From the NCBI GenBank assembly GCA_019873665.1, contig JAIOAV010000008.1, positions 1 to 64,000 on the forward strand: DNA of 64,000 nt. The letters are read 5' to 3'. Under the pieces are notes generated by a model. It worked only from the letters and a program-made list of their open reading frames with translations. It made no database searches and was not told the DNA's origin. Shown here piece after piece: positions 6,426-23,220 of the stretch. The DNA is from Chloroflexota bacterium. GTDB taxonomy: Bacteria > Chloroflexota > Anaerolineae > JAAYEA01. The position numbers were made by a program, and so were the translations under genes. Numbering within the stretch: position 1 is the first letter of the stretch; each line of letters starts with the position of its first letter.

Positions 6426-7877
6426 CTAGCCGAGCTCGGCCACCCAAGCGTTTTGCAGCGCCGGCAGATCCGCGAACACCCAGTCGGGCGCCAACCCAGA
6501 CGCGGCCAGCTCCCGTTCACCCACAACGCCGGTCAGCACGAGGATGGTCATCAGCCCGGCCCGCTGTCCGCCCAGGATGTCCGTTTCCGGACGGTCGCCA
6601 ATGATCGCCGTATGCGCCGCGTCCGCGTCCAGCCGATCCAGCGCCACCTGAAAGATGGGCAACTCCGGCTTGCCCACGATAAAGGGCGACACGTCCGTCG
6701 CCGCCTCGATGGCGGCCAGGATCGCGCCATTGCCCGGCACTAATCCTTCCTCCGCCGGGTAGGTCTTGTCCGGGTTGGTGCCGATAAAGGCCGCGCCGGC
6801 GCGGATCGCCAGCGTCGCCTCTTTGAGCTTGCGATAGGTCAGATGGCGGTCCCAGCCGACCACGACCGCCGCCACACCCTCGTGCCCGTCAGCCACCTCG
6901 TAACCGGCAGCCCGCAGCGCCTCGCGCACGCCGCTCTCCCCGATCACATAGACCCGTGACCCGGGTGGGATCACCTTTCCCAGATGCATAGCCGTCGCCG
7001 CCGACGAGGTGAACACCTCCTGCGGCGCGACGTGGATATCCATGCCGGCGAGTTTGGTCACGTATTCTTGCGGCGTGAGCGACGAGTTGTTGGTGAACAG
7101 CAGAAACGGGATGCCGCGCTCCCGGCAGAAATCGAGGAACTCGCGCGCGCCTGGGATCGCCGTCATCCCCCGGTACATGACGCCATCCATGTCAATCAAC
7201 AAATGCCGGATGTCCGATAGACGCTTCTCTCTCGACAACGCTCCTTCTCCCTGAAAGAGTTGTAATGCTCGCACATAGTCGGCGGGCGTGTCAATGTCAT
7301 CGAAACAGAGCGCGGCGTCCACTTCCACGAGCGCCAGCTCGTCCGCGTGCCGCCGCACCACATCCCTGCCGCCGCGATCCCCGGTCACAGCGCGCAGCTC
7401 GGGGAAAAGGCTCCGCGCGAAGAGGACCGGATTGCCCCAACTCCCCTTGTATGCGGGCGCTACCAGCCGCGCGCCGGTTTGCTGCCAGCGGCGCAGCAGT
7501 CGCGCGATCAACTCGGGCGAGACATGCGGCTGATCTCCCAGCACCATCAGCACCGCTGCCACATCCAGTCCCAGCGCTGCCAAGCCAGCGCGCAACGACG
7601 TGCTGAGTCCCTGCTGCCAAGCTGGATTATCCACGATAAGCAGGCGCGGCTGCGCTGCATATCCGGCCAACTGCTGACGGATAGTTGATGCGTGCGCGCC
7701 GAGCACCAGCACCACCTGTTGTACGGGCGACGCCAGCACTGCATCCAACACGCGCGCGAGAAGCGGCTTGCCGCCCAGCGGCAGAAGCTGTTTGATCTGG
7801 CCAAAGCGGTGCCCGCCTCCCGCCGCCAGGATCACTGCTCCCACAGATGTGCCCACCATCTGCACACGCGCTGCCAT
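6426..7877 (-). CDS. two-domain protein: MobA/MocA-like nucleotidyltransferase fused to NagD-like HAD phosphatase
   Basis: N-term VGAVILAAGGGHRFGQIKQLLPLGGKPLL; C-term LLIDMDGVMYRG...LLFTNNSS...GTNPDKTYP...IIGDRPETDILGG; single open frame. Confidence 0.88.
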   Translation of the reverse strand: MAARVQMVGTSVGAVILAAGGGHRFGQIKQLLPLGGKPLLARVLDAVLASPVQQVVLVLGAHASTIRQQLAGYAAQPRLLIVDNPAWQQGLSTSLRAGLAALGLDVAAVLMVLGDQPHVSPELIARLLRRWQQTGARLVAPAYKGSWGNPVLFARSLFPELRAVTGDRGGRDVVRRHADELALVEVDAALCFDDIDTPADYVRALQLFQGEGALSREKRLSDIRHLLIDMDGVMYRGMTAIPGAREFLDFCRERGIPFLLFTNNSSLTPQEYVTKLAGMDIHVAPQEVFTSSAATAMHLGKVIPPGSRVYVIGESGVREALRAAGYEVADGHEGVAAVVVGWDRHLTYRKLKEATLAIRAGAAFIGTNPDKTYPAEEGLVPGNGAILAAIEAATDVSPFIVGKPELPIFQVALDRLDADAAHTAIIGDRPETDILGGQRAGLMTILVLTGVVGERELAASGLAPDWVFADLPALQNAWVAELG

Positions 7878-7885
7878 GGCGCTCC

Positions 7886-9205
7886 TCAGGCGGAGAGGAG
7901 CAGGGCAAAATGCGGCCATTCGTAACGGCGCAACCGCCCCTGCTGCGCCGGCAGGTCTTCATCCACCACCTGATACGCTGCCCGTCCCGCCAGCACCTGC
8001 GCCAGCGCGTCCGCGAATTCGACGAGCACGCCGGGCTCCAAGCGTGGACGGTTATGCGAGGGGCATATCGCATCAAGCCGTGACGCCAACGCGGCCAGGC
8101 GAGCCGCCGATTGCGCCAGCATGTCCAGATCCGAATCGGCAAAGTGGCAATAGAGCGTGCCGGGGTAAAAAGAGTCCCCCGTAAAGAGCAAACGGTCCGC
8201 CTCATCGTACAGGCAGATGCTATCCGCCGAGTGGCCGGGCGTATGCCATACCTGCAACATCTTGCCGCCGAGGTCAATCACCTCTCCCTCCCGCAGGGGA
8301 TGCGTGATGGCAAAGGGCAGAATGCGATAGTCCTCTGGCCGAAATGGCTGCGGCACCGACCAGGGGCGATAGAAAGCCCCTGGTACTAGCGCGCCCATCG
8401 CCGCGATCTCGGCATGAGAGATGCCCTGCATGGCGCGCTGCCGCGCCAGCGGCGTGTCAAAGAGCGCGACCTCGGCAAAGCGGTGGTTGTCGCCGATGTG
8501 GTCATAGTGCGAGTGTGTGTTGACGACCAGGATCGGTTTGTCCGTCAGCCGCTGCACCTCCAGCTCGATGTTGCCGATACCCATGCCGGTATCAATCAGC
8601 GCCGCACGGCGCTCGCCGATTACCAGATACGACTGGGCTCGCTCGTAATGACCTGGCTCAGTCAGCGCGTATACGCCCCTGGCCACGAGCGTCGTCTCGA
8701 ACCATGACCCGCCCACACCGCGCGTCGCGACCACCTGGCACGGCTGGATGACGCCGCCGGTGCCGGGTATAGGCAGGATCAGCAGCAGATCTCCATCCGC
8801 CAGCCAATCCTTGGTGTCAACGCCGCGCACGATCCACTTGCCGGCCGCCCGCAGCCGGCGCGCATTGGGCACATCGCTGCGATCCGGCGCATCCGGCCCG
8901 CAGCCATAGGCAAAGGCGATCACGTCGCTATCCCAGAGCACAACGCGCTCTGTCGCCTCCGGCGTCAGATAGCCCCCCTCCGGCAGCACGAGCACCGGAA
9001 TAGAGCCGCTGCACGCTTTGTTGCGGACCGCCTCGACGTCAGACGCAGCAACGACAGGCTGAGAGAAACGCCCCAACGCCGACCAACCGGCCAGACCGGT
9101 CTTGTGCACCTCAACCCATCCCGCAGTCGGCTCGGGGGCTTCCCACCAGGTCTCGCACGGCGACGTGCTCGAGCGCCTTGTCAGATTCTGGAGCTTGACG
9201 GACAT
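7886..9205 (-). CDS. MBL-fold metallohydrolase with ~170 aa N-terminal extension
   Basis: NTHSHYDHIGDN, TPGHSADSICLY, LLFTGDSFYPG; ATG at 9205 one base after the upstream stop. Confidence 0.85.
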   Translation of the reverse strand: MSVKLQNLTRRSSTSPCETWWEAPEPTAGWVEVHKTGLAGWSALGRFSQPVVAASDVEAVRNKACSGSIPVLVLPEGGYLTPEATERVVLWDSDVIAFAYGCGPDAPDRSDVPNARRLRAAGKWIVRGVDTKDWLADGDLLLILPIPGTGGVIQPCQVVATRGVGGSWFETTLVARGVYALTEPGHYERAQSYLVIGERRAALIDTGMGIGNIELEVQRLTDKPILVVNTHSHYDHIGDNHRFAEVALFDTPLARQRAMQGISHAEIAAMGALVPGAFYRPWSVPQPFRPEDYRILPFAITHPLREGEVIDLGGKMLQVWHTPGHSADSICLYDEADRLLFTGDSFYPGTLYCHFADSDLDMLAQSAARLAALASRLDAICPSHNRPRLEPGVLVEFADALAQVLAGRAAYQVVDEDLPAQQGRLRRYEWPHFALLLSA

Positions 9206-9206
9206 C

Positions 9207-10112
9207 CTAACCACCTCCCATAGAGACTCGCAGTCCCCGTTCCTCAAAGCACGCCGCCGCGAGATGCTTCTGCTCTTCGGTGAGCGGGACGAGGGCCAGA
9301 GGTGGCAGCGGGCTATCCAGACGCGGCAGCTTGCTCTCGCCCAGGCGATGATACGGTAGCAGATGCACTTCATCCAGTCCCAAATCACGGAGCAGCGCGG
9401 CGATCGCTCCCAGGTTTTCTGGTCGCGCTGTCATCGTTGGCACGATCGGCAGGCGCGGGATCACCGCGACGCCTCGTGCCACCAGACGACTCAAGTTGCC
9501 AAGGATCAGCGCGTTGTCCTGCCGCGTGAACTCGCGGTGCAGCGCGGCGTCAACAGCCTTGACGTCGTATAGGATCAGGTCGAGGTAAGGGAGGACGCTC
9601 TCCAGTATCTCCCAATCAGCAAAGCCGCACGTCTCCAGCGCCGTATGGAGCTGGCTCTCCTTGCACAGTCGCAGGAACTCGCGCAGCGCCAGCGGCTGCA
9701 TGGTCGGCTCGCCACCCGAGACGGTAACGCCGCCGCCCGACGTGCGATAGAACGGCTCGTCGCGCCGCACCTCCTGCAATAGCTCCTCCGGCGTGTAGTA
9801 ACGGCCCACGACGCGCAGCGCTTCGGCAAAACAGACCTCCGCGCATTTGCCACAGCGTGTGCACTTGTCCCGGATGATGCGGCTCTCCCCCTGATACGTG
9901 ATCGCCCCCTGCGGGCACACCTCCTGGCACTTGCCACAGCCAATGCAAAGGTTGGCGTAGAACGCCATCTCTGGGTGTGGCAGCAGCCCTTCCGGATTCT
10001 GGCACCAGCGGCAACGCAGGGGACATCCCTTGAAAAACACCAGGGTGCGAATGCCGGGCCCATCGTGTAGCGAGAATCGTTGGATATCAAAGACAAGGGC
10101 TTCGCAGCGCAT
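9207..10112 (-). CDS. glycyl-radical enzyme activating protein (radical SAM, ferredoxin-containing)
   Basis: FSLHDGPGIRTLVFFKGCPLRCRWCQNPEG (CxxxCxxC), two Cys clusters CIGCGKCQEVCP and CTRCGKCAEVC, GGGVTVSGGEPTMQP; alternative start at 10127. Confidence 0.93.
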   Translation of the reverse strand: MRCEALVFDIQRFSLHDGPGIRTLVFFKGCPLRCRWCQNPEGLLPHPEMAFYANLCIGCGKCQEVCPQGAITYQGESRIIRDKCTRCGKCAEVCFAEALRVVGRYYTPEELLQEVRRDEPFYRTSGGGVTVSGGEPTMQPLALREFLRLCKESQLHTALETCGFADWEILESVLPYLDLILYDVKAVDAALHREFTRQDNALILGNLSRLVARGVAVIPRLPIVPTMTARPENLGAIAALLRDLGLDEVHLLPYHRLGESKLPRLDSPLPPLALVPLTEEQKHLAAACFEERGLRVSMGGG

Positions 10113-10264
10113 GCCGATCTCCTTCATCAGGTAGCGGTGATTATACACGGGCGGCCCGATCGGGTCAAAAGGAATGGATCGAGCCGCGTCAAGCGCGGCG
10201 ATTTCGTCGCATACCGCAAGCGTGGTAGAATGCGCCAGACACACCAACATACCGTTCCAGGAGG

Positions 10265-11173
10265 ATGACCATGACACGTTTTGCCGGCGTGTGGCCTGCG
10301 CTGGTTACACCGCTCACGCCCGATGATCAGATCAATGTGGCTGCCACGCGGCGGCTGGTGGAGCATCTGCTCAAAACCGGCATCGGTGGCCTGTACGTCG
10401 GCGGCAGCACCGGCGAGGGTGTCCTTCTGCCGACTGCCACCCGCCAGCGGCTGGCAGAGGTGGTGATCGAGCAGGTGAACCACCGCGTGCCGGTGATGGT
10501 GCACGTCGGCGCGGCGGCCACCGCCGACGCCGTGACGCTGGCCGCCCACGCCGCTGCCAGCGGCGCGGACGCCGTGTCCGCCGTTCCCCCCTTTTACTTC
10601 CAGGTTGGCTTTCGCGGCATCAAGGAGCACTACCAGAGGATCGCCGATGCCTCTCCCCTGCCGCTGTACCTGTATTACATCCCCAGCGCTACAGGGGTGA
10701 ACCTGACCGCGGCGCAGATGGCCGAGCTATGCCAGATATCGCATGTGCGCGGTTTCAAGTACACCGCCTACGACCTCCATCTGCTGGAGCAGATCATGGC
10801 GCTGACCGGCGGCAAGATGAACGTCTTCAGCGGGCCAGATCAGCTCTTCCTCCCCTTCCTGGCGCTGGGAGTGGATGGCGCCATCGGCACGACGTACAAC
10901 GTGCTCGCCAGCCACTATGTGCGGCTCTACGGCGCCTTTCAGCAGGGGGATATGGCAACGGCGCGCCGTCTGCAATCGCAGGCGAATCGCGTCATTGACG
11001 TCTTTGTGGGCTATGGCGGTCTGCCGGCCGTCAAGGAGATGATGCGCTTCATCGGGCTGGACTGCGGCGATTGCCGTCGTCCCCTGCGCAAGCTGGACGA
11101 GGGCGAAGTCGCCGCGCTGCGCGCCGCACTGCAAGAGGCACACTTCTGGGAGCTGGCTGACATCGCCGCATAG
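10265..11173 (+). CDS. nanA: N-acetylneuraminate lyase / DHDPS superfamily aldolase (NanA-like)
   Basis: GLYVGGSTGEG, LYYIPSATGVNL, GFKYTAYDLHLLEQI (Schiff-base Lys region), GVDGAIGTTYNV. Confidence 0.75.
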   Translation: MTMTRFAGVWPALVTPLTPDDQINVAATRRLVEHLLKTGIGGLYVGGSTGEGVLLPTATRQRLAEVVIEQVNHRVPVMVHVGAAATADAVTLAAHAAASGADAVSAVPPFYFQVGFRGIKEHYQRIADASPLPLYLYYIPSATGVNLTAAQMAELCQISHVRGFKYTAYDLHLLEQIMALTGGKMNVFSGPDQLFLPFLALGVDGAIGTTYNVLASHYVRLYGAFQQGDMATARRLQSQANRVIDVFVGYGGLPAVKEMMRFIGLDCGDCRRPLRKLDEGEVAALRAALQEAHFWELADIAA

Positions 11174-11374: not shown

Positions 11375-12421
11375 ATGAAGCCACTCAACTTTGCCATCAT
11401 CGGCGGGGGCAACATCGGTCGCGTCCATATGGACGCCATCTCCCACATTCCGGATGCCAGAGTGAGCGTCGTCTGCGATGTCTCGCAGGAGAGGGGCTGC
11501 GCTCTCGCCGCCGCGTGCGATGCCTGCTGGGTCGCGAGCTACGAGGAGACTGTGGCGCGACCTGACGTAGATGTGGTTTCCATCTGCACCCCCAGCGGCA
11601 CACACGCCGAGGTTGCTGTCGCCGCGGCCCGCGCCGGGAAACACGTCATCGTCGAGAAGCCCATTGATGTCACGTTGTCGCGTGTTGACCAGATCATCGC
11701 GGCAGCGACAGAGGCAGGCGTCAAGCTCGCTTGCATCTTTCCCCTCCGCTTCATGGAAGGCGTCCACTATACTCGGGAGGCAGTGATGGCGGGTCGTCTG
11801 GGGCGGCTGACGCTGGTGGATGCTTACATCAAGTGGTATCGGCCACAGTCGTACTACACGGGCAGTTGGCGCGGCACGTGGGCGCTGGATGGCGGCGGCG
11901 CGCTGATGAACCAGGGCATCCACAGCATTGACCTCTTGCAGTGGTTCGGCGGCCCCATCAGCACGATCTACGGCCGCACCGCGACACTGGCGCACGAGAT
12001 GGAGACGGAGGACACCGCTGCTGCCGTGCTCACCTTTGACAACGGCGCTATGGGCGTCATCGAGGCCACAACCGCCAGCTGGCCTGGCGATGAGGCGCGG
12101 GTAGAGTTGCATGGCGACCGGGGCACGATCGTGCTGGAGCAGGGGCGCATCGTCCGCTGGAAGCTGGTGGATGCGCCGCCAGGCGAGGAGGAGCGGATGC
12201 TATCGCTGGAAGGGTATCTGGGCAGCGGCGCGCAGGATCCGATGGGGATCAGCTACGAATTGCACCGCCGCCAGCTACAGGATATGGTAGACGCGATTCG
12301 CGAGGACCGCGCGCCAGCCGTGAATGGCGCCGAAGGGCGCAAGGCGGTGGAGATCATCCGCGCCATCTATCGGTCTGCCAAGACGGGTCAGACGGCGCAT
12401 CTGCCGCTGGTGGAATCGTAA
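11375..12421 (+). CDS. Gfo/Idh/MocA family NAD(P)-dependent oxidoreductase
   Basis: [44 protein letters not shown]. Confidence 0.95.
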
Positions 12422-12444: not shown

Positions 12445-13401
12445 ATGAAACTGGATCTGCTATCCACGCTCAAGGGTTCACTGCTGGAGGGCTTTTTCCC
12501 CGCGGGATGGGACCTGGCCAAGATTGACGAATGCTGCAGCCATGAGCCGCACGCCATCACGTTGCCGCAGAGCTGGTGGCATCCCGAGTTCGCGCCGGTT
12601 CCCTGCGCTACGCTGGCCGATTTCGAGGTCAAGATGGGGCACGAGGTGGCGCTGGAGATCAAGCGCGCCCGCGACGCGGGGCGCGAGCTGATCCTCATCC
12701 TGCCCGTCGGCCCGATGGGGATGTATCGGTGGATCGTCTATTTCCTGCAGGAGTGGGGCGTGAGCTGCTCCCATGTGCATGGCTTTAACATGGACGAGTG
12801 GAGCGATGCCGAGGGGAACACCCTGCCACCTGAGACGCCGGGCGCATTCGAGGGTGCGATGAACGATGCCTTCTACGTGCCGCTGGGCACGTTGACCGTG
12901 CCCAGGGCGCAGCGCCACTTTGCCACGCGCGATTCGCTGCCGCATTACGCGGCGCAGATCGGCGCGCTGCGGGCCAAGGGCGCGCGCCTGGTGACCATCT
13001 ACGGCATCGGGCGCGTCTTTCATATCGCGTTCTGGGAGCCGCATTTTGCCGGCGAGTTCGACTCGTTGGAGGCATGGAAGGCGCAAACGCACCGCCTGGG
13101 CGCCAAGCTCCACCCACTGACCATCGAGCAGAACGCCATTACCTCATTCAAGAGCCGCACCACCTCCATTCCGGCGTATGCCAATACCATCGGGCCGGGC
13201 CTGTTCTTGAAGTCGGATCGTTGCATCGGCGGCTGCGACGGCGTGCTGGGTCGCGGCATGATGTGGCAGGGCGTCAGCCTGTGGGTGACGCTGCGCTACG
13301 GCCCGGACAAATGGGTGCCCTCTAGCTGGATGCCCACCTTGCCGGGGCGGCTCTTTTTCCTGGAAGAGCTGGCCGGACCGCTGGTGGCAGAGGCGAACTA
13401 G
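12445..13401 (+). CDS. glucosamine-6-phosphate deaminase/isomerase-like protein (divergent NagB family)
   Basis: [17 protein letters not shown] and [13 protein letters not shown] align with NagB FNMDEY and GNDGHIAFNEP. Confidence 0.8.
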
Positions 13402-13455
13402 ACGAGCAGCATGTGCGGTTAGTTGCGCACCCCTAGCACAGCACGGAGGAGCATC

Positions 13456-14754
13456 ATGTTTGCCGGAACGGCCAAGATCGACATCACTCCATCCGGCCCG
13501 GTCTGGATGGATGGCATGATCCGTGCACACCCTTCGGTCGGCGTGCACGACCCGCTCTATGCGCGCGCGCTCGTGCTGGCGAACGACGCAGACGACCTGA
13601 CCACCGCCTACGCCATCGTCTCGGTAGATGTCTGCGGGCTGCGCACGGAGGACCACACGGCAGCGCGACGAGGAGCTGCTATGCGCAGCAGCGTCCCCGT
13701 GTCCCAGATCATCATCGCCACAACGCACACGCACTCTGGCCCCGCAACCATCGGCTTTTTCAACCAGGCCGAGACCGCATACACGCAGGAGCTGATCAGC
13801 AAGCTGGCAGCGCTGGTCGCGGACGCAGCGACGCACCTCCAGCCGGTGAGGATAGGCTGTGCCTCCGGGCGCGAGGATACCATCAGCCACTACCGGCGGT
13901 TGCTAGCTAAGGATGGCCATGTCGTCATGAACTGGGAGCCATATCCCGCGGACCAGCTCGTGGGTCCGCTGGGCAAGCCCGACACGGAGGTGGGCGTGCT
14001 GGTGGCACGCGGCATGGACGGCGCGCCCGTCGCCATCCTTTTCAATCATGCCGGGCATCCCAACGTGCTTTCCGGTGACAACTATCTGCTCAGCGCCGAG
14101 TATCCGGGACTGGCAGAGCGGCTGCTGGAGGCCGAGTTCGGCGGCATGGCGATCTTTGTCAACGGCGCGCAGGGCACGATGGACATTGACGGGCTGCGCG
14201 ACCGAGACTGGGAGGGGATGGAGCGCACCGGCCACGCGCTGGCTGGCGCGGTGGCAGAGGTGGTGCGCAAGCTGGACTTTTCCGAGCAGCCCGCCATCTT
14301 GCGCGGCGGGCACATCAACTACACCATCCCCGCTCGCCGCATCACCGATGGTGAGTGGGAATGGGCGCAGCGCGTTCTGGCCCAGACCGGCGGCAAGGTG
14401 CAGGCGATGGCGGACGGCGTGGGCGACGATTATCTCGCGGTGCTCTACCAGCGCCTGCGCGAAGTGCAGGATCGCGACATTCCCATCGAGCAGACCTGTT
14501 TCGTCATCGGCGACTGCGCCTGGCTCACCTTCCCTGGCGAGCTATACACTGAGATCGGGCAGGAGATCAAGCGGCAGAGCCCCTTCGCGCGCACCTATAT
14601 CATCGGCCTCGCCAATGGGCAGGTGGGCTATATCCCGACACGGCAAGCGATCCATGAGGGCGGCTATGCCGAGGACACGCGCCGTGTGGACGAGGCCGCC
14701 GAGAGCATTGTCCTCGCGCATAGCCTCACCCTGCTACGACAACTACGCGGCTAG
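13456..14754 (+). CDS. neutral/alkaline non-lysosomal ceramidase-like protein
   Basis: GTAKIDITPSGPVWMDGM; IIIATTHTHSGPA; FNHAGHPNVL. Confidence 0.8.
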   Translation: MFAGTAKIDITPSGPVWMDGMIRAHPSVGVHDPLYARALVLANDADDLTTAYAIVSVDVCGLRTEDHTAARRGAAMRSSVPVSQIIIATTHTHSGPATIGFFNQAETAYTQELISKLAALVADAATHLQPVRIGCASGREDTISHYRRLLAKDGHVVMNWEPYPADQLVGPLGKPDTEVGVLVARGMDGAPVAILFNHAGHPNVLSGDNYLLSAEYPGLAERLLEAEFGGMAIFVNGAQGTMDIDGLRDRDWEGMERTGHALAGAVAEVVRKLDFSEQPAILRGGHINYTIPARRITDGEWEWAQRVLAQTGGKVQAMADGVGDDYLAVLYQRLREVQDRDIPIEQTCFVIGDCAWLTFPGELYTEIGQEIKRQSPFARTYIIGLANGQVGYIPTRQAIHEGGYAEDTRRVDEAAESIVLAHSLTLLRQLRG

Positions 14755-15058: not shown

Positions 15059-15805
15059 ATGGAGAACGAGCCGCTCTATCGCCAGGTATATGACCAGCTC
15101 CGACAACGCATCCTGTCCGGCGCCTATCGCCGAGGCGTTGCGCTCCCCTCTGAGCCGCGCCTCTGCGAAGAGTTCGGCGTCAGCCGCATTACCATCCGCC
15201 GCGCCATGCACGAGCTGGCGCTGGATGGCCTCGTCGAGCGGCGGCAGGGGCTGGGAAACTTTGTCCGCAGCACGCCGCAGAACGTCGTGATCGGCCTCTC
15301 CAGCTTTACCTCCGACGTCGCCGCCGGCAATCTGCGCTTGGTGCGCACACTTCTCGCCGATGAGCTCATCCCTGCCAACGAGCAGGTCGCCGCGAAACTA
15401 GGCGTACAGTCCGGTTCGATGGTGCGTCACCTAGTGCGGCTGGACGATGAGGGCGGCATGCCGTTATCGGTGGATGAGGCATTCATCCCACCAGCGTTTG
15501 CCGCCGCTATCACCGCCGAAGTTGCCGGATCGCCACTCTTTATGCACCTCTGGCAGACCGCGTCCAAGATTAGGCTCACCCACACTTTCTATGAGATCGC
15601 CGTGCGGATGCCGGACCCGGTAGATTGCGAGTTGCTGCAGATCGCGCCGGAGGTCCCGTTGCTAGTAACCGGCGAAACGCTGCTGGACGCTAGGAACCGG
15701 CCCCTTGGCTGGATCCTGACGCGATACCGGGGGGATCGGTGCCACCTTGCCGGCACCGTCAAGCTCGTACAACGCGCGACCAAGCAAGGCACGGTAGGGG
15801 AGTGA
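15059..15805 (+). CDS. GntR-family transcriptional regulator with UTRA domain
   Basis: MENEPLYRQVYDQLRQRILSGAYRRGVALPSEPRLCEEFGVSRITIRRAMHELALDGLVERRQGLGNFV. Confidence 0.95.
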   Translation: MENEPLYRQVYDQLRQRILSGAYRRGVALPSEPRLCEEFGVSRITIRRAMHELALDGLVERRQGLGNFVRSTPQNVVIGLSSFTSDVAAGNLRLVRTLLADELIPANEQVAAKLGVQSGSMVRHLVRLDDEGGMPLSVDEAFIPPAFAAAITAEVAGSPLFMHLWQTASKIRLTHTFYEIAVRMPDPVDCELLQIAPEVPLLVTGETLLDARNRPLGWILTRYRGDRCHLAGTVKLVQRATKQGTVGE

Positions 15806-15881: not shown

Positions 15882-17219
15882 ATGAGTAACGCAGACAAGC
15901 TAGCGATTGCAGGGGGAACTCCTGTCCTGAAGCGCAGCGACTATCAGAACTGGCCGATCATTGGGCCAGATGACCGCCGTTTGATCAACGAGGTGTTGGA
16001 TAGCGGCATCGTGGCGGGCGGCACCGCCCCGCAGGTGGCGGCGCTGGAGCGAGAGTGGGCCGAGTACATTGGCACCAAGTATTGCCTCACCACCAACAGC
16101 GGCACGGCGGCGCTGCACATGTCTCTGGCAGCCGTCGGCGTCGGCCCGGGCGACGAGGTGATCACGTCCGCCTTTACCTTTCTCGCTTCCGCATCGTGCG
16201 CGCTGCACCAGAATGCGATCCCTGTGTTCGTGGACATTGACCCGCGCACCTATTGCATGGACCCGGACAAACTGGAGGCAGCGATCACCGAGCGGACGAA
16301 AGCCATCATTCCGGTGCATATCCAGGGCCTGTCTGCTGACATGGACCGCATCATGGCCATCGCCAGGAAGCACCACCTGTATGTCATCGAAGACGCCTGC
16401 CAGGCACACGGGGCCACATACAAGGGGCGCAAGGTCGGCGGCATCGGCGACATCGGCACCTTCAGCCTGAACAATTACAAGAACCTCCCCGGCGGCGAGG
16501 GCGGGCTTTTCAACACCAATAGCCTCGAGTATCTCGAGAAGGCGATGCTCATCCGCTGCTTTGGCGACGAGATCGACGAGGTCAGCCACCGCCGCATCTA
16601 CAATGCCTCGATCCTCGGCTACATGTACCGCAACCAGGAGCTACCCGCGGCGTTTGCCCGGGCGCAGCTGCTGCACCTAGACGAGTATAACGCCATCCGC
16701 ATCGCCAACGCCAACTACCTCACTCAGGAGCTGGCCAAGATCCCGGGTGTGATCCCGCCCTACTGCCCGCCCGAATGCCAGCACGTCTATTTCATGTACA
16801 ATGTGCGCTTTGATCCTACGGCCGCGGGCGTGGACGCATCGCCGCGCCGTTTCCGCATCGCCGTGGAAAAGGCGCTCTATAGGGAAGGCGTGCTCGTCGG
16901 GCAGTGGCAGACGATGCCGGTGCCGGCGCAGGATATCTTCCAGAGCAAGCTGGGCTATGGCGGCTCCTCCTTCCCGTGGGCTGTGAACGAGGCCAAGGGG
17001 ATCAAGTACAACTATGATCCCAACCAATTCCCGGTGGCGCAGGCGCTGTGCGACAGCTACACCATCGTGCACGGCGTGCACGCGCCCAACGGGCGCGAGT
17101 TGATGGACAAGATCGTCGCCGCGTTCCACAAGGTCTTTGCCGATCTGCCGACGGCGCTGGCCCACGCCGACGATGCCATCTACCCGGGCGCGGATGGCCG
17201 CCTCTACGGCGCGGGATAA
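15882..17219 (+). CDS. DegT/DnrJ/EryC1/StrS family PLP-dependent aminotransferase
   Basis: TNSGTAALHMSLAAVGVGPGDEVITSAFTF; VIEDACQAHGATYKGRKVGGIGDIGTFSLNNYKNLPGGEGG with PLP Lys. Confidence 0.95.
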   Translation: MSNADKLAIAGGTPVLKRSDYQNWPIIGPDDRRLINEVLDSGIVAGGTAPQVAALEREWAEYIGTKYCLTTNSGTAALHMSLAAVGVGPGDEVITSAFTFLASASCALHQNAIPVFVDIDPRTYCMDPDKLEAAITERTKAIIPVHIQGLSADMDRIMAIARKHHLYVIEDACQAHGATYKGRKVGGIGDIGTFSLNNYKNLPGGEGGLFNTNSLEYLEKAMLIRCFGDEIDEVSHRRIYNASILGYMYRNQELPAAFARAQLLHLDEYNAIRIANANYLTQELAKIPGVIPPYCPPECQHVYFMYNVRFDPTAAGVDASPRRFRIAVEKALYREGVLVGQWQTMPVPAQDIFQSKLGYGGSSFPWAVNEAKGIKYNYDPNQFPVAQALCDSYTIVHGVHAPNGRELMDKIVAAFHKVFADLPTALAHADDAIYPGADGRLYGAG

Positions 17220-17351
17220 TATGCTGCACCGCAGAAAACGCAGAGCACAGAGGGAGACATTTGAAACCTCGGCATCTCTGCGATATACGAGGTGCGCGGA
17301 CACGAGGCAGTTGCGTGGGCGTTGCAGCACACACGAATGGAGGGTGAAGCG

Positions 17352-18386
17352 GTGAAAAGCAAGGGACTATACGGCAAAAAGCATCTGGACATCCAGGTGC
17401 GGGAGCGCGAGATCGGCGCGCCGGATGTGGATGATGTGATCGTCAAGGTGTACGCCTGCGGTGTGTGCGGCACCGACGTCAACTTTGTGCGCGACTGGAC
17501 AGATGACCCGATGCCACTGGGCCACGAGATCGCTGCCGAGGTGGTCGAGGTCGGCAGAAACGTCACCTCGGTCAAGCCAGGGGACCGCGTGATCGTGGAG
17601 GATTGCTCCATGTGCGGCATCTGCGAGGCGTGCAAGAGCGGCCAGCCGCAGTTCTGCCGCAACATGTACGATCTGGGCGGGCAGCCGGGCATGGGCGAAT
17701 ACCTGCGTGTCCGCTTTAACAGTGTGGACAAGTTCGAGGGGCTGGATTACGTCTCCGCCAGCCTGACAGAGCCGCTGGCCGTCTCGCTCACCGCCGTGCT
17801 CAACGCCGAGATCCCGCTCGGCGGCAGCGTTGTCGTGCTGGGGCCTGGGCCGCTGGGTCTGATGTGCGCTCGCCTGGCCAGACTGCACGGCGCGGGCTTT
17901 GTCGGCATCACCGGCCTTCCCGCAGATAACCCACGCGAAAAGGCGCGGCTGGAGCTGGCGCGGCAGTTCGGCTGCGACATGACTATCGAGGCGGGCAAGC
18001 AAGACATCGAGGACGAGATCAAACACCGTTTCCCCAAAGGGGTGGATCGCGTCATCGTCAGCTCGCCACCGCAAAGCATGTACGACGCTTTCAAGATCAT
18101 CCGCTTTGGCGGCATCATCACCTTCTTTGGCCTGCACTTTGGCGGCAAGAACGTCATTGATCTCGACGTGAATGACATGATCTTTCGCAAGATCACACTC
18201 CGCCCGACTTTTGCCGAGCCGGCGATCAACTTCCCCATCTCCAATCGGCTGCTGCGCGATGACCTGGTGGATGCCAAGGCGCTGGTTACACACACCTTCC
18301 GCTGGGGCGAGGAGAAAGAGACGCTGCGTGCCATCATAGATGGCAGCCAGCCGATCATCAAAGCGGTGATGCTGCCACACGGGTAG
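17352..18386 (+). CDS. Zn-dependent medium-chain alcohol dehydrogenase family protein
   Basis: VKVYACGVCGTDVNFV, GHEIAAEVVEVG, structural-Zn Cys cluster CSMCGICEACKSGQPQFC; GTG start after GGAGGGTG. Confidence 0.9.
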   Translation: MKSKGLYGKKHLDIQVREREIGAPDVDDVIVKVYACGVCGTDVNFVRDWTDDPMPLGHEIAAEVVEVGRNVTSVKPGDRVIVEDCSMCGICEACKSGQPQFCRNMYDLGGQPGMGEYLRVRFNSVDKFEGLDYVSASLTEPLAVSLTAVLNAEIPLGGSVVVLGPGPLGLMCARLARLHGAGFVGITGLPADNPREKARLELARQFGCDMTIEAGKQDIEDEIKHRFPKGVDRVIVSSPPQSMYDAFKIIRFGGIITFFGLHFGGKNVIDLDVNDMIFRKITLRPTFAEPAINFPISNRLLRDDLVDAKALVTHTFRWGEEKETLRAIIDGSQPIIKAVMLPHG

Positions 18387-18459: not shown

Positions 18460-20187
18460 ATGATCACCTGCCGACAACTGCTGGACGAGGGTTTCGTGGA
18501 GATCGCCTTTGCGCTGGAGAGCGGCGCTCTCTATGGCGCGCGCCTGACCTACTCGACGGACGGCGGCGCCACCTACCGCCCTTGCGCCATCTATCTGGAT
18601 CACGGGCCGGACTGCCTGCTGGCGAGCGGCTTCTGGGAGTGGAACGAAGCGGTGCAGTTTGGCAACGTCAAGTTCAACGGTGCGCCGCATACGCTCTACT
18701 GGAACACCTTTCTCAACGGCATGCACGCTGCGCCAGCCACGGTGATCGTGCGCGTAGAGGCGCTGCGCGAGGATGGAATCGAGACAGATGAGTGCACGCT
18801 CGCGTTACAGCCGACCCGCGCCCGCTACTATCGCATGTGGCAAGAGGACGTGCCCACCGGGAGCGGCTGGCGGGTGGAGGACGGCGCACTGACCGTCGAG
18901 TCGGGGCGGGAGGTCGCGCCGTTCGTGGTGCGGCCCGGTTTGCGGGGGCGCTACCGCGTCATCCTCGGCGTCCCGTCCGGCGCGTTGCACCTCTGGTTGC
19001 ACCTGAGCGGCGAGGAGGACCGCTATCCGCTGATCGCCAGCCAGCACCGGGCGGCCTTTGCTGCCAAGGCACACAAGGAAATCACATGGCGCACGGTGGA
19101 TTTGCAGCCGGAGACGGCACTGGAGATCCATCCCATCCCTACCGCGATCAGACACCCGGAGCTTTACCCCACCGGCCGAATCGCCTATCTGAAGTTCGTG
19201 CCGGAGCCGCCGCCTATGCCGCGCGCCGCCGCGCGCTGGGCCGACAAGAAGCTGGCGCTCTATTTCGAGCCGTATAGCTGGGCGTTCGTCTATGGGCTGG
19301 ACTCGCTGGGCGCGGTGCGCGAAGCACTTTCTATCTACAAGGAGATGGGCGCCGACGAGGTGCACACGCAGGCGATCCGCTTTGGCTCCCGCGCCCTGCA
19401 TTACAGCCACGTGGCGGAGCACTTTTCCGGGATGACGGCGGGCGACGACGGCACGCATTCCACCGGGCCGGAGCAGATGGTGCGCGCGCTGGATGTGCTG
19501 CGCGTTACCATAGACCTCTGCCGCGAGATGGGGATGATACACTATGCCAACGCCGGCCTGACCAACTGCTATCCGGGCACAAGCCTGGAGGACAAGATCA
19601 GTCGCGAGCATCCGGAATGGCGCACCGGCAACATCCTGCGCTACGGTTTTCCGGAGACGCGGGCGTATGCCGCCGCCATCGTGCAAGAGTTCATTGCCTG
19701 GGGGACGGATGGCGTTACCATAGATTGCATGAGATATCCCTATTACCACACGGAGGAAGAGCTGCTCCTCCTCTTTCATGAGATCCGCCGCGCCATGGAC
19801 GTGACAAGCCCCAACCGCGTGGTCCCCCTGGCGGTGCGGATTCCCGCCGGCGACGTGGTGTACTATCGCGTCTTTCAGCGGCTGGCGCAAGAGGGAGCGA
19901 TCCAGTGCGCGATCCCATCCACTATCTGGGAGCGGTTGCCCCTTTTTTCGCTGCGCCCCTACCTGAAGTGGCGCGATTACGGTTGCCGCATCTACGGTCG
20001 CATTGACGGCTGGGAACAGAGCCTCTGGGGGAATCACCACCTGCTGCTGCATCCACGCGACATCCGCGCGGACATCACACGCTTTCTGGACGAGGGCGCG
20101 GACGGCATCTACGTGTACCAGGGCGATCAGCACGCCGGCGATGCCTTCACGCGGGATGTTCTGGATTGGCGGAAGTGGGATGAGTGA
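18460..20187 (+). CDS. uncharacterised TIM-barrel glycosidase-like protein (GHL10-like) with N-terminal beta domain
   Basis: GTDGVTIDCMRYPYYHTEEE and FLDEGADGIYVYQGDQHAGD resemble GHL10/family-10-like hydrolases; motif judgement only. Confidence 0.55.
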   Translation: MITCRQLLDEGFVEIAFALESGALYGARLTYSTDGGATYRPCAIYLDHGPDCLLASGFWEWNEAVQFGNVKFNGAPHTLYWNTFLNGMHAAPATVIVRVEALREDGIETDECTLALQPTRARYYRMWQEDVPTGSGWRVEDGALTVESGREVAPFVVRPGLRGRYRVILGVPSGALHLWLHLSGEEDRYPLIASQHRAAFAAKAHKEITWRTVDLQPETALEIHPIPTAIRHPELYPTGRIAYLKFVPEPPPMPRAAARWADKKLALYFEPYSWAFVYGLDSLGAVREALSIYKEMGADEVHTQAIRFGSRALHYSHVAEHFSGMTAGDDGTHSTGPEQMVRALDVLRVTIDLCREMGMIHYANAGLTNCYPGTSLEDKISREHPEWRTGNILRYGFPETRAYAAAIVQEFIAWGTDGVTIDCMRYPYYHTEEELLLLFHEIRRAMDVTSPNRVVPLAVRIPAGDVVYYRVFQRLAQEGAIQCAIPSTIWERLPLFSLRPYLKWRDYGCRIYGRIDGWEQSLWGNHHLLLHPRDIRADITRFLDEGADGIYVYQGDQHAGDAFTRDVLDWRKWDE

Positions 20188-20190
20188 GGG

Positions 20191-20658
20191 ATGGCAAAGG
20201 AGGTGCTCCAGCGCCGCGCAGGCGACAACGTATATCTGCACAAGGACTTCCACGGCGCGCTGAGCTGCGGCATTACCTACATCGAGCAACGGTACGGGCC
20301 GGACGCGGTGCGCGCCTACTTGCGCCAGTTCGCGCGCGCTTTCTACGCGCCGCTGACCGCGGCGCTGCGCGAGCGCGGCCTTGTCGCGCTGGAGGAGCAC
20401 TTTGCCCACATCTACGCGCTGGAAGGAGGCGTCGCGCATCTCACGCGCAGCGCCGACGAGCTGCTGCTGGATGTCAAGGTGTGTCCGGCGGTGGCGCACA
20501 TGCGCGCGCACGGCTACCCGGTGGCGCGGATGTGGCGCGAGACTACAGCAACCGTCAACGACGCGATCTGCGAGGGGACACCCTATGCCGCTGAGCTGGC
20601 GGCTTACGATGAGAAGACGGGCCGCCACCGCGTCCGCTTCTACCGGAGGGGATCGTGA
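20191..20658 (+). CDS. uncharacterised small protein, 155 aa
   Basis: ATG 3 nt after the previous stop; stop overlaps the next gene's GTG start. Confidence 0.75.
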   Translation: MAKEVLQRRAGDNVYLHKDFHGALSCGITYIEQRYGPDAVRAYLRQFARAFYAPLTAALRERGLVALEEHFAHIYALEGGVAHLTRSADELLLDVKVCPAVAHMRAHGYPVARMWRETTATVNDAICEGTPYAAELAAYDEKTGRHRVRFYRRGS

Positions 20659-21110
20659 TCTCGTGCACCGAGTTCATCCCGGCCTATAGCGAGATGTTCA
20701 AGTTCCTGGAGGCACAGGGTGGCAAGGAGGCGGTCCTCGATTTCTGGCGTTACCTGTCGGACAATTTCCTCGGCAATCTGGCAGATCTGGTACGCAAACA
20801 TGGCCTGCGCGGCTGCTGGCTCTACTGGAGTCACACGCTGAACGAGGAGGCCGCCGACTTTACCATGACGCTGGACGAGGAGGCGGGGGAGTTCAGCATC
20901 GTTATGCACCGCTGCCCGTCCAAAGGGCGGCTGCTGGAATACACCCATATCACGCCGTATCACGATTACTGCGGCCACTGCGACCTGCTTTACCGGCGCG
21001 TCCTGGAGCCGCTGGGCTACGAATACATCTATGACATGAGCGGCTGCGAGCGCGCCAGGTGTCGCTTGACGATCCGCCGTCTGCCGCAAGCAAAGGAAGG
21101 GGAGAGATGA
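20655..21110 (+). CDS. uncharacterised small protein, 151 aa, Cys/His-rich segment HDYCGHC
   Basis: GTG start at 20655 overlapping previous stop (GTGA); own TGA overlaps nagA ATG (ATGA). Confidence 0.75.
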   Translation: MISCTEFIPAYSEMFKFLEAQGGKEAVLDFWRYLSDNFLGNLADLVRKHGLRGCWLYWSHTLNEEAADFTMTLDEEAGEFSIVMHRCPSKGRLLEYTHITPYHDYCGHCDLLYRRVLEPLGYEYIYDMSGCERARCRLTIRRLPQAKEGER

Positions 21111-22273
21111 CGCAACATCTGGTGATCAAGAATGGCGATGTGCTGCTAGCCGAGGGGCGGCTGGCGCGGGTGGATGTCCGTGTGGCGGATGGCAGGATCA
21201 TCCAGATCGGCCAGGATCTGCATGGCGAGCAAGAGCTAGACGCCACCGGCCATTATGTGCTGCCCGGCCTGATTGACTTGCACCAGCATGGCATCGGGTT
21301 CGAATCGTGCGAGTCAGGCACGCTGGACGAATTCGCGCGGCTGGAAGCGTCGCGCGGCGCGACCACCTTCTTCCCAACCCTCTTTGCCGCGCCCGATAAG
21401 AGCGCCCGGCTGATGGCGCAGCACCGCCGCACCAGCGATGAGCTGCGCCGCCTGCCGCAGATCGGCGGCTTTCGGCTAGAGTCGCCATACCTGGCGCACA
21501 CCGGCGCCGGCCTGGCTGACGATCTCGCGCCCATCAGCCGCGAGACGACCGATGCACTATTGGCCGCAGGCGGCGGGCACGTGCGCATCGTGGACATCTC
21601 GCCGGAGCTGCCCGGCGCACTGGACGAGATTCGCTATCTGTCGGCGCAGGGGATCGTATGCAGCCTGGCGCACACCGAAGCCGGCATCGCGCAGGCCCGC
21701 GCCGCCGTGGACGCGGGAGCGCGGCTGGTAACGCACATGTTTGACACCTTTGTCCTGCCCAGCCTCGACGACCCGGACCCTGGCGTCTATCCGGCAGGGC
21801 TGGTGGACTATCTGCTCGTGGAGGATCGCGTCATGTGCGAGATCATCGGCGACGGCACGCACGTCCACCCGCTTCTCGTGGAAAAGGCGCTGCGCTGCAA
21901 GACGCCAGACAGGCTGGTCTTTGTTACGGATAGCAACTTTAGCGCGGGCCTGCCGCCGGGAGATTACGAGCTGCCAAACAACTGGGGGAGGGGGCGCATT
22001 CAGGGCCCGAACAACGGCGTGCGGTTGGTAGATCGTGACATGGCGCTGGCGGGCAGCGCGCTGACACCGCTGGATAGCCTAAAGAACGCAGTCCACCTCT
22101 TTGGCCAGCCGCTGGCGGTGGCCACCATCGTCTGCGCGCGCACGCCGGCGCGTCTGCTGGGGCTGAACAAGGGGGAGATCGCCATCGGCAAGGACGCAGA
22201 CCTGATCGTGGTGGATCGCGATCTGGAGCTGCGGCACACGATCGTGGCAGGCGCGGTGATCTACACGGCATAG
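21107..22273 (+). CDS. nagA: N-acetylglucosamine-6-phosphate deacetylase family
   Basis: PGLIDLHQHGIGFESC, LAHTEAGIAQARAAVDAGARLVTHMFDTF, FVTDSNFSAGLPPG. Confidence 0.85.
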   Translation: MTQHLVIKNGDVLLAEGRLARVDVRVADGRIIQIGQDLHGEQELDATGHYVLPGLIDLHQHGIGFESCESGTLDEFARLEASRGATTFFPTLFAAPDKSARLMAQHRRTSDELRRLPQIGGFRLESPYLAHTGAGLADDLAPISRETTDALLAAGGGHVRIVDISPELPGALDEIRYLSAQGIVCSLAHTEAGIAQARAAVDAGARLVTHMFDTFVLPSLDDPDPGVYPAGLVDYLLVEDRVMCEIIGDGTHVHPLLVEKALRCKTPDRLVFVTDSNFSAGLPPGDYELPNNWGRGRIQGPNNGVRLVDRDMALAGSALTPLDSLKNAVHLFGQPLAVATIVCARTPARLLGLNKGEIAIGKDADLIVVDRDLELRHTIVAGAVIYTA

Positions 22274-22314: not shown

Positions 22315-23097
22315 CTATGCCAGGATCACATTGACGCCTCCTTCTCGCAACCGCGCCACGAAATCCGCCGGGGCGTCGCTGTCGGTGATCAGTGTGTTGA
22401 TCTCCGTCAGGGGCATGATGCTGGTGAGGCCGATCACGCCGATCTTGCTGGAATCCGCGACGACGATGACCTCCCGTGCGGCGCGCACCATCGCCTGATC
22501 CACCTCTGCTTCCAGCAGGTTGGAGGTGGTGATGCCATGGGAGAAGGTGAGGCCATCCGCGCCAAGGAACAGCTTGTCGGCATTCAGCCCCCTCAAGTTG
22601 TCAATCGTCTGCGGGCCGACCACCACATCATATTCAGGCAGGTAGATACCGCCCAGCAGGATCAGGTCCACTCCCTTCCAGGGGCCGAGCTCTCGCACCA
22701 CTGGCAATGAGCCGGTGATCACCGTCAGATTGCCGTCCATGAGTAGGTGACCGGGAAGATGACGGGCCACATGCAGCACAGTCGTCCCTGAGTCAAAGAT
22801 GACACGCTCCCCCGGATGGACGAGCGCAGCGGCGACAAGGCCGATCCGCTCCTTCTGCCGCGCACGCTGCTGTAGCCGCGTCTGATAGCCCTGGCCGGCG
22901 GCGCTGCTGGGCATCGCCACCGCCCCACCGTGCACGCGCTTCAGCAGACCAAGCTTCTCTAGGCGCTCCAGATCGCGGCGAACCGATACCTCCGAGATGC
23001 CAAATCGCGCGCTAAGATCGGTTACCCGCACCATCCGCTGCCGACTCAGCTCAGCGAGGATCTGCTCACGCCTCTTTTCCGCCTCTGGCATTATCAT
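22315..23097 (-). CDS. DeoR-family transcriptional regulator
   Basis: RREQILAELSRQRMVRVTDLSARFGISEVSVRRDLERLEKLGLLKRVHGGAV; C-term sensor VIFDSGTTVLHVARHL. Confidence 0.95.
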   Translation of the reverse strand: MIMPEAEKRREQILAELSRQRMVRVTDLSARFGISEVSVRRDLERLEKLGLLKRVHGGAVAMPSSAAGQGYQTRLQQRARQKERIGLVAAALVHPGERVIFDSGTTVLHVARHLPGHLLMDGNLTVITGSLPVVRELGPWKGVDLILLGGIYLPEYDVVVGPQTIDNLRGLNADKLFLGADGLTFSHGITTSNLLEAEVDQAMVRAAREVIVVADSSKIGVIGLTSIMPLTEINTLITDSDAPADFVARLREGGVNVILA

Positions 23098-23220
23098 TCC
23101 CTCCCCTTCCATATGGACCTGCCAGCGACGAATTGTAGCGCTATCTCGGCGAGAGGTCAAATCCAAATGGAAACGAAACAGCCAAAACCTGCAACCGAAA
23201 CAGGGTGAGCGAGGGTTGCG

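Follow-up and report, generated by a model that had tools for sequence, protein, structure and literature searches.

Most V4R and Bet3 proteins serve in binding or have a structural role, and thus their fold does not imply an enzymatic function. No CxHC site is known in the TRAPP subunits Bet3, Trs33 and Trs31, which are paralogous subunits that form heterodimers in eukaryotic vesicle tethering. Likewise, no Cys cluster is known in BcsD/CesD, the subunit D of cellulose synthase. In MopR, PoxR and DmpR, the dimeric sensor domain (PF02830 and XylR_N) has a Cys-rich metal site and is attached to a regulatory domain. The V4R domain has been linked with Bet3 (PMC2253512), and the V4R, HNOB and ATC hydrolase domains and a shared three-Cys cluster have been linked in published work (PMC5847659), and the papers found mention the ATC hydrolase family (PF14196) only in passing. 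Here, two small adjacent ORFs, A and B, of a Chloroflexota bacterium are compared with these systems. They lie in a window of 64,000 nucleotides, the whole stretch of DNA analysed (GCA_019873665.1, contig JAIOAV010000008.1, positions 1 to 64,000), with the following features.

20191..20658, plus strand: ORF A, predicted subunit A of 155 aa, a degenerate V4R/ATC-like paralogue, with an ATG start at 20191
20233..20253, plus strand: N-terminal motif Y15-L-H17-K-D19-F20-H21 of A, conserved only in A
20482..20487, plus strand: C98-P99 of A, aligned with C87-P88 of B
20539..20547, plus strand: E117-T-T of A, at the place of the apparently lost CxHC motif
20655..20658, plus strand: GTGA overlap of the B start and the A stop
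20655..21110, plus strand: ORF B, predicted subunit B of 151 aa, a V4R/ATC-like paralogue with the full Cys/His cluster and a GTG start
20913..20927, plus strand: motif C87-P-S-K-G91 of B
20967..20981, plus strand: motif Y105-C106-G-H108-C109 of B, inside HDYCGHC
21060..21062, plus strand: invariant C136 of B, at the start of the last strand

The positions of the two ORFs, the GTGA overlap and the ATGA at 21107-21110, which is shared by the end of B and the start of a nagA-like gene, were confirmed as described in the initial annotation, and the segments DELLLDVKVCPAV, GEFSIVMHRCPSK and HDYCGHC that it had pointed out are all present in the proteins. It had also stated that the overlaps tie both ORFs to nagA; this holds for B, while A is coupled to B only. 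The start of the nagA-like gene at 21107 is plausible, since the NagA profile matches its protein from the first residue. Because the stop codon of an upstream glycosidase-like gene (20187) lies 3 bases before the start of A, the glycosidase-like gene, A, B and the nagA-like gene make one tight four-gene unit. In related genomes, the orthologues stand side by side, at 60-66% identity for A and 76-78% for B, and nearly all homologues share the position of the B start codon. Thus, the two ORFs are not chance ORFs.

Are A and B related to each other, as their similar layout had suggested? A direct BLASTP comparison of the two sequences gave no match, so that the relation rests on profiles and structure. 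When profiles of 50 sequences each were aligned with hhalign, the probability was 98.7% (E 3.7e-16, 137 columns), and smaller profiles of 4 sequences each gave 98.0%. In this comparison, the Cys-Pro of A (C98-P99) is aligned with C87-P88 of B, and the structure model has the same secondary-structure layout in both. Therefore, the proposal that A and B are diverged paralogues is supported. In the phylogenetic tree, the A domains are split from the B domains with a support of 100/99, which indicates that the duplication is older than the spread of the pair. A deep-branching pair (G130) matches the A query and the B query alike.

AlphaFold2 modelled a natural B-A fusion protein (L071, see below) with a pLDDT of 96.3 and a pTM of 0.91 as two like domains in a fixed arrangement, and the B protein of the window alone with a pLDDT of 92.8 and a pTM of 0.84. 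A helical half followed by a beta-beta-alpha-alpha-beta-beta layout was found, as in the solved V4R/TRAPP structures. In the Foldseek search, TRAPP core subunits, PoxR/DmpR/MopR sensor domains, BcsD/CesD and H-NOX were matched. The best matches had probabilities of 0.96-1.00 and TM scores of about 0.5-0.6, none reaching E 1e-3; for B, the best was a TRAPP core entry (7b6d_A, probability 1.00, TM 0.60, E 1.8e-3). Thus modelled, the fused protein is confidently predicted to consist of two copies of the V4R/TRAPP-Bet3 fold, and the relation of A and B to the known proteins of this fold appears distant. V4R (PF02830) was absent among the Pfam families matched by A or B members at E values up to 0.1, and a search of NCBIfam and PDB sequences gave no family for A or B. 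Compared with the MopR, PoxR and DmpR domains, A and B share the predicted fold, the dimeric state and a Cys-rich metal site (both putative in A-B), but lack the Pfam sequence match and the attached regulatory domain. The TRAPP subunits are the best structural match and form heterodimers of paralogues, as predicted for A and B, but their function is another one. BcsD/CesD matches in fold and has a carbohydrate-bound structure, but is a homo-octameric glucan-export subunit.

The initial annotation had suggested a distant relation to the ATC hydrolase fold. PF14196 was the commonest Pfam match, found for 18 of the 50 A members and 8 of the 50 B members at E values up to 0.1, with a best E value of about 0.001. 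Against the cut-off of 28.1 bits, the A protein of the window scored 13.8 bits and the B protein gave no match, and no further PF14196 match was found in its own genome. A profile comparison with six PF14196 members, whose alignment is of poor quality, gave 75.8% over 75 columns for A and 0.1% for B. ATC hydrolases and the pair are similar in size and have in common a C-P upstream of a C-x(2-3)-C pair and a last Cys ahead of the final strand, and there are weak profile matches in both A and B members. The three-Cys cluster of PF14196 is found in B (C87, C106/C109, C136) and not in the main-clade A proteins. On the other hand, A and B fall below the curated cut-off, form a (predicted) heterodimer or a fusion with one degenerate half, and occur in a sugar-operon context. 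Hence the relation held at the level of the superfamily, on account of the weak PF14196 matches and the V4R/TRAPP fold, and not as family membership; A and B were placed in the V4R/TRAPP/ATC-hydrolase fold superfamily, outside the ATC hydrolase family.

Among 50 non-fused homologues of B, residues C87, C106, H108, C109 and C136 are 100% invariant. The invariance of CPSKG was partly selected for by the seed patterns of the genome scan (MHxCPSKG or GxxxYWxH), while C106, H108, C109 and C136 lie outside these patterns. In the model of B, the conserved Cys/His residues stand where two helices and the last strand begin, and may meet in one site, which is probably a metal or catalytic site. The main-clade A proteins have xETT in place of the CxHC motif and conserve Y15, H17, D19, F20 and H21 near the N-terminus. 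Two deep-branching A proteins (L013 and L093) retain YCEHC or FCQHC and the last Cys, and another A protein (L086) has FCEHT. The simplest history would be that the site was lost in A after the duplication.

I scanned 84,980 species genomes with B as the only query; the seed patterns favour proteins with either motif. At least 99 loci were confirmed, mostly from metagenome assemblies, and 80 of them were kept and read. The pair is carried by species of Chloroflexota, Armatimonadota, Planctomycetota, Lentisphaerota, Verrucomicrobiota, Kiritimatiellota and Bacteroidota, and further by those of Calditrichota, Spirochaetota, Acidobacteriota, Omnitrophota, Hydrogenedentota and Bacillota. At the separate-gene loci, A lies directly before B. 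In 42 of 53 separate plus-strand B genes, the overlap with A is 4 bases, and in 6 more A is within 25 bases. Of the three separate B genes without A, one lies at the edge of a contig, one is a partial match and one is a disrupted ORF, and no intact B without A was seen in the 80 loci read. Among 150 related genomes that were searched, the four with A were also the four with B.

In Clostridia (Bacillota), 31 fused genes were found, which have the order B-A and encode about 312 aa. All fusions belong to one clade with a support of 100/99, indicating a single origin. The sister of this clade (L057) has the gene order B, nagA, A, from which the order B-A of the fused genes could have arisen. Some Clostridia have two copies.

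L063, 6741-7685 and 8001-8942: two fused genes, divergent
L066, 7060-7998 and 8001-8930: two fused genes, in tandem
L069, 8001-9954: a fused gene together with separate A and B genes

Across loci, the A and B distances correlate at 0.81 (raw distances, in which species relationship is included). On the same subsets, the raw distances gave 0.84-0.89 for A and B, compared with 0.66 for NagA and B, 0.54 for DapA and B, and 0.35 for the ceramidase-like protein and B. These values support, without proving, the co-evolution of A and B. Constant genetic pairing and natural fusion, as expected for an obligate heterodimer, were both found. Thus, the near-universal adjacency and the natural B-A fusions strongly support the A-B partnership and the heterodimer that had been suggested, and A and B probably associate physically.

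The gene cluster of the window extends from a DapA/N-acetylneuraminate-lyase (NAL) family aldolase gene (10265) to the NagA-like gene, with an AgaR-like repressor gene on the opposite strand.

10265..11173, plus strand: DapA/N-acetylneuraminate-lyase family aldolase
11375..12421, plus strand: Gfo/Idh/MocA dehydrogenase
12445..13401, plus strand: divergent NagB-like protein, a weak label, no Pfam match
13423..14754, plus strand: neutral-ceramidase-like amidase (PF04734 30.6 bits, cut-off 32.1)
15059..15805, plus strand: GntR/UTRA regulator
15882..17219, plus strand: DegT/DnrJ-type aminotransferase
17292..18386, plus strand: zinc-type alcohol dehydrogenase
18460..20187, plus strand: glycosidase-like (beta/alpha)8 protein, no Pfam match, weak GH18 chitinase similarity
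21107..22273, plus strand: NagA-like amidohydrolase, coupled to B by ATGA (TIGR00221 181.6 bits)
22315..23166, minus strand: DeoR-family repressor, AgaR-like

The score of the NagA-like protein is below the TIGR00221 equivalog cut-off of 225.65 bits, and it is classed as NagA-like. The glycosidase-like protein has weak similarity to the protein encoded at the equivalent position of L016. A further group of genes (6429-10277, minus strand), divergent from the aldolase gene, encodes a fusion of a MobA-like nucleotidyltransferase with a HAD phosphatase, a protein of the metallo-beta-lactamase fold, and a radical SAM protein that carries 4Fe-4S domains.

Is this context common to the other loci? 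Neighbours were labelled by BLAST clusters and by Pfam/NCBIfam on representatives, partly with sequences read by eye. They include pyruvate-type aldolases, NagA-like and divergent NagB-like proteins, FGGY kinases, amidases, aminotransferases and dehydrogenases. Where at least 4 kb was available on both sides, core pathway genes were present at 34 of 41 loci, an aldolase at 20 and NagA/NagB-like genes at 19. The expectation that the pair stands next to nagA elsewhere was true in part: a NagA-like gene lies within the fetched flanks at 26 of 82 loci. Many Planctomycetes and Armatimonadota loci are without NagA/NagB-like neighbours, so the pathway may differ among carriers. The NagB-like family occurs at 20 of 82 loci; the members tested have no Pfam or NCBIfam match, and a relative (L067, 6055-7017) has PDB matches, weak ones, only to glucosamine-6-phosphate deaminases.

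DapA/NAL-family aldolases were found at 36 of 82 loci and YhcH at 6. A DapA-family gene stands within 250 bases before A at 16 loci, often overlapping, and an HpaI-type aldolase gene does so at 3; HpaI-type aldolases take the place of the DapA family at Bacteroidota and Calditrichota loci. The adjoining DapA-family aldolases keep the Schiff-base Lys and the Tyr, which is followed by Asp (Y-D) in nearly all, while the lyase-like copy of the window has Y-Y and classical members have Y-N. They fall into two divergent groups, nearly all with YDRG or YDLPxVT and not the usual Tyr-Asn, and no NCBIfam equivalog fits the members tested.

Group one: L017, L021, L023, L027, L028, L036-L038, L042, L048, L050, L058
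Group two: L051-L054, L065, L066, L072, L076, L078, L080, L085, L087, L088, L091

BNR proteins are also present at some loci and, by eye, the RIP arginine of sialidases appears to be missing from them. The reading as a plain sialic-acid operon was set aside; the adjoining aldolases and BNR proteins are not canonical. In gut Clostridia, the operons contain an aldolase, YhcH, a kinase, a NagA-like protein, an amidase, a NagB-like protein, the fused pair and a BNR protein. No description of this gene set was found in the literature. The neighbourhood is consistent with the missing amino-sugar step that had been suggested from the position, and points to a 2-keto-3-deoxy acid aldolase as much as to NagA.

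On balance, I favour an obligate A-B heterodimer of the V4R/TRAPP-Bet3/ATC fold, in which B is active and A is degenerate, working in amino-sugar or 2-keto-3-deoxy-sugar-acid catabolism. A and B would be halves of one protein, made as separate subunits or, in Clostridia, as a single B-A chain. The probable site of metal binding or catalysis (C87-P, C106-x-H108-C109, C136) would be in B, and A would be the partner that has lost this site, whose N-terminal YxHxDFH motif may complete it. The complex would most likely be a soluble metalloenzyme, such as a hydrolase, a ring-opening enzyme or an isomerase. Its substrate would be an intermediate of either pathway, and it would act together with a pyruvate-type aldolase, a deacetylase like NagA and a deaminase like NagB. 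I infer for A-B metal binding, catalysis and a step in such a pathway. A more tentative idea is that A-B represents a new class of enzymes, as a heterodimeric metalloenzyme with the V4R fold. It would carry out an undescribed step, e.g., an isomerisation, or a hydrolysis that opens the ring of a cyclic imine or hemiketal form. The pathway, an undescribed catabolic one for amino-ulosonic or related sugar acids, would then be common to uncultivated Chloroflexota, Armatimonadota and PVC bacteria and to gut Clostridia.

An enzyme with an amino-sugar or 2-keto-3-deoxy acid intermediate as its substrate suits the context best, and the main rival is a binding protein whose metal is structural. In that case, the dimer would be a non-catalytic small-molecule binder (sensor, carrier or chaperone) that delivers or senses a sugar intermediate, with the Cys/His cluster holding a structural zinc as in the MopR/PoxR V4R domains. 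The top structural matches are indeed TRAPP subunits, phenol-sensor V4R domains and BcsD/CesD, including a cellopentaose complex, and the structural zinc in MopR is held by three Cys and one Glu (PMC10715001), as against CxHC in B. However, A-B has no attached DNA-binding or signalling domain, and the operon already has its own GntR and DeoR regulators. Moreover, the invariant extra H108, the CPSKG motif and the other conserved motif that A has instead of the site point to more than a structural role, and I consider the binder rather unlikely. It is improbable that the pair replaces a sialic-acid-type step, such as that of the ManNAc-6-P epimerase NanE, between the lyase and NagA. The DapA/NAL-family aldolases and YhcH beside NagA-like genes would fit such a step, but the divergent Y-D aldolases, the HpaI-type enzymes used instead in two phyla and the BNR proteins apparently without the RIP arginine do not. 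It is hardly credible that A-B is a genuine ATC hydrolase or another cysteine/thiazoline enzyme that merely lies near sugar genes. PF14196 is its commonest Pfam match, but the scores are far from the cut-off, the neighbours are sugar genes, and neither a carbamoyl-cysteine amidohydrolase nor an ATC racemase was among the neighbour families read.

In summary, A-B is a previously unnamed protein encoded in clusters of sugar-breakdown genes in many phyla; its structural class and its partnership are clear. A pair that is present in at least 99 bacterial species and belongs to no Pfam/NCBIfam family at threshold can thereby be assigned a predicted fold and a partner, as well as a candidate active site and a pathway context. 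The fusion, and a CxHC motif that was lost step by step in A, may offer a clean natural case of how two similar halves become one active and one degenerate subunit. The operons of gut Clostridia look like a complete sugar pathway, which is directly testable.
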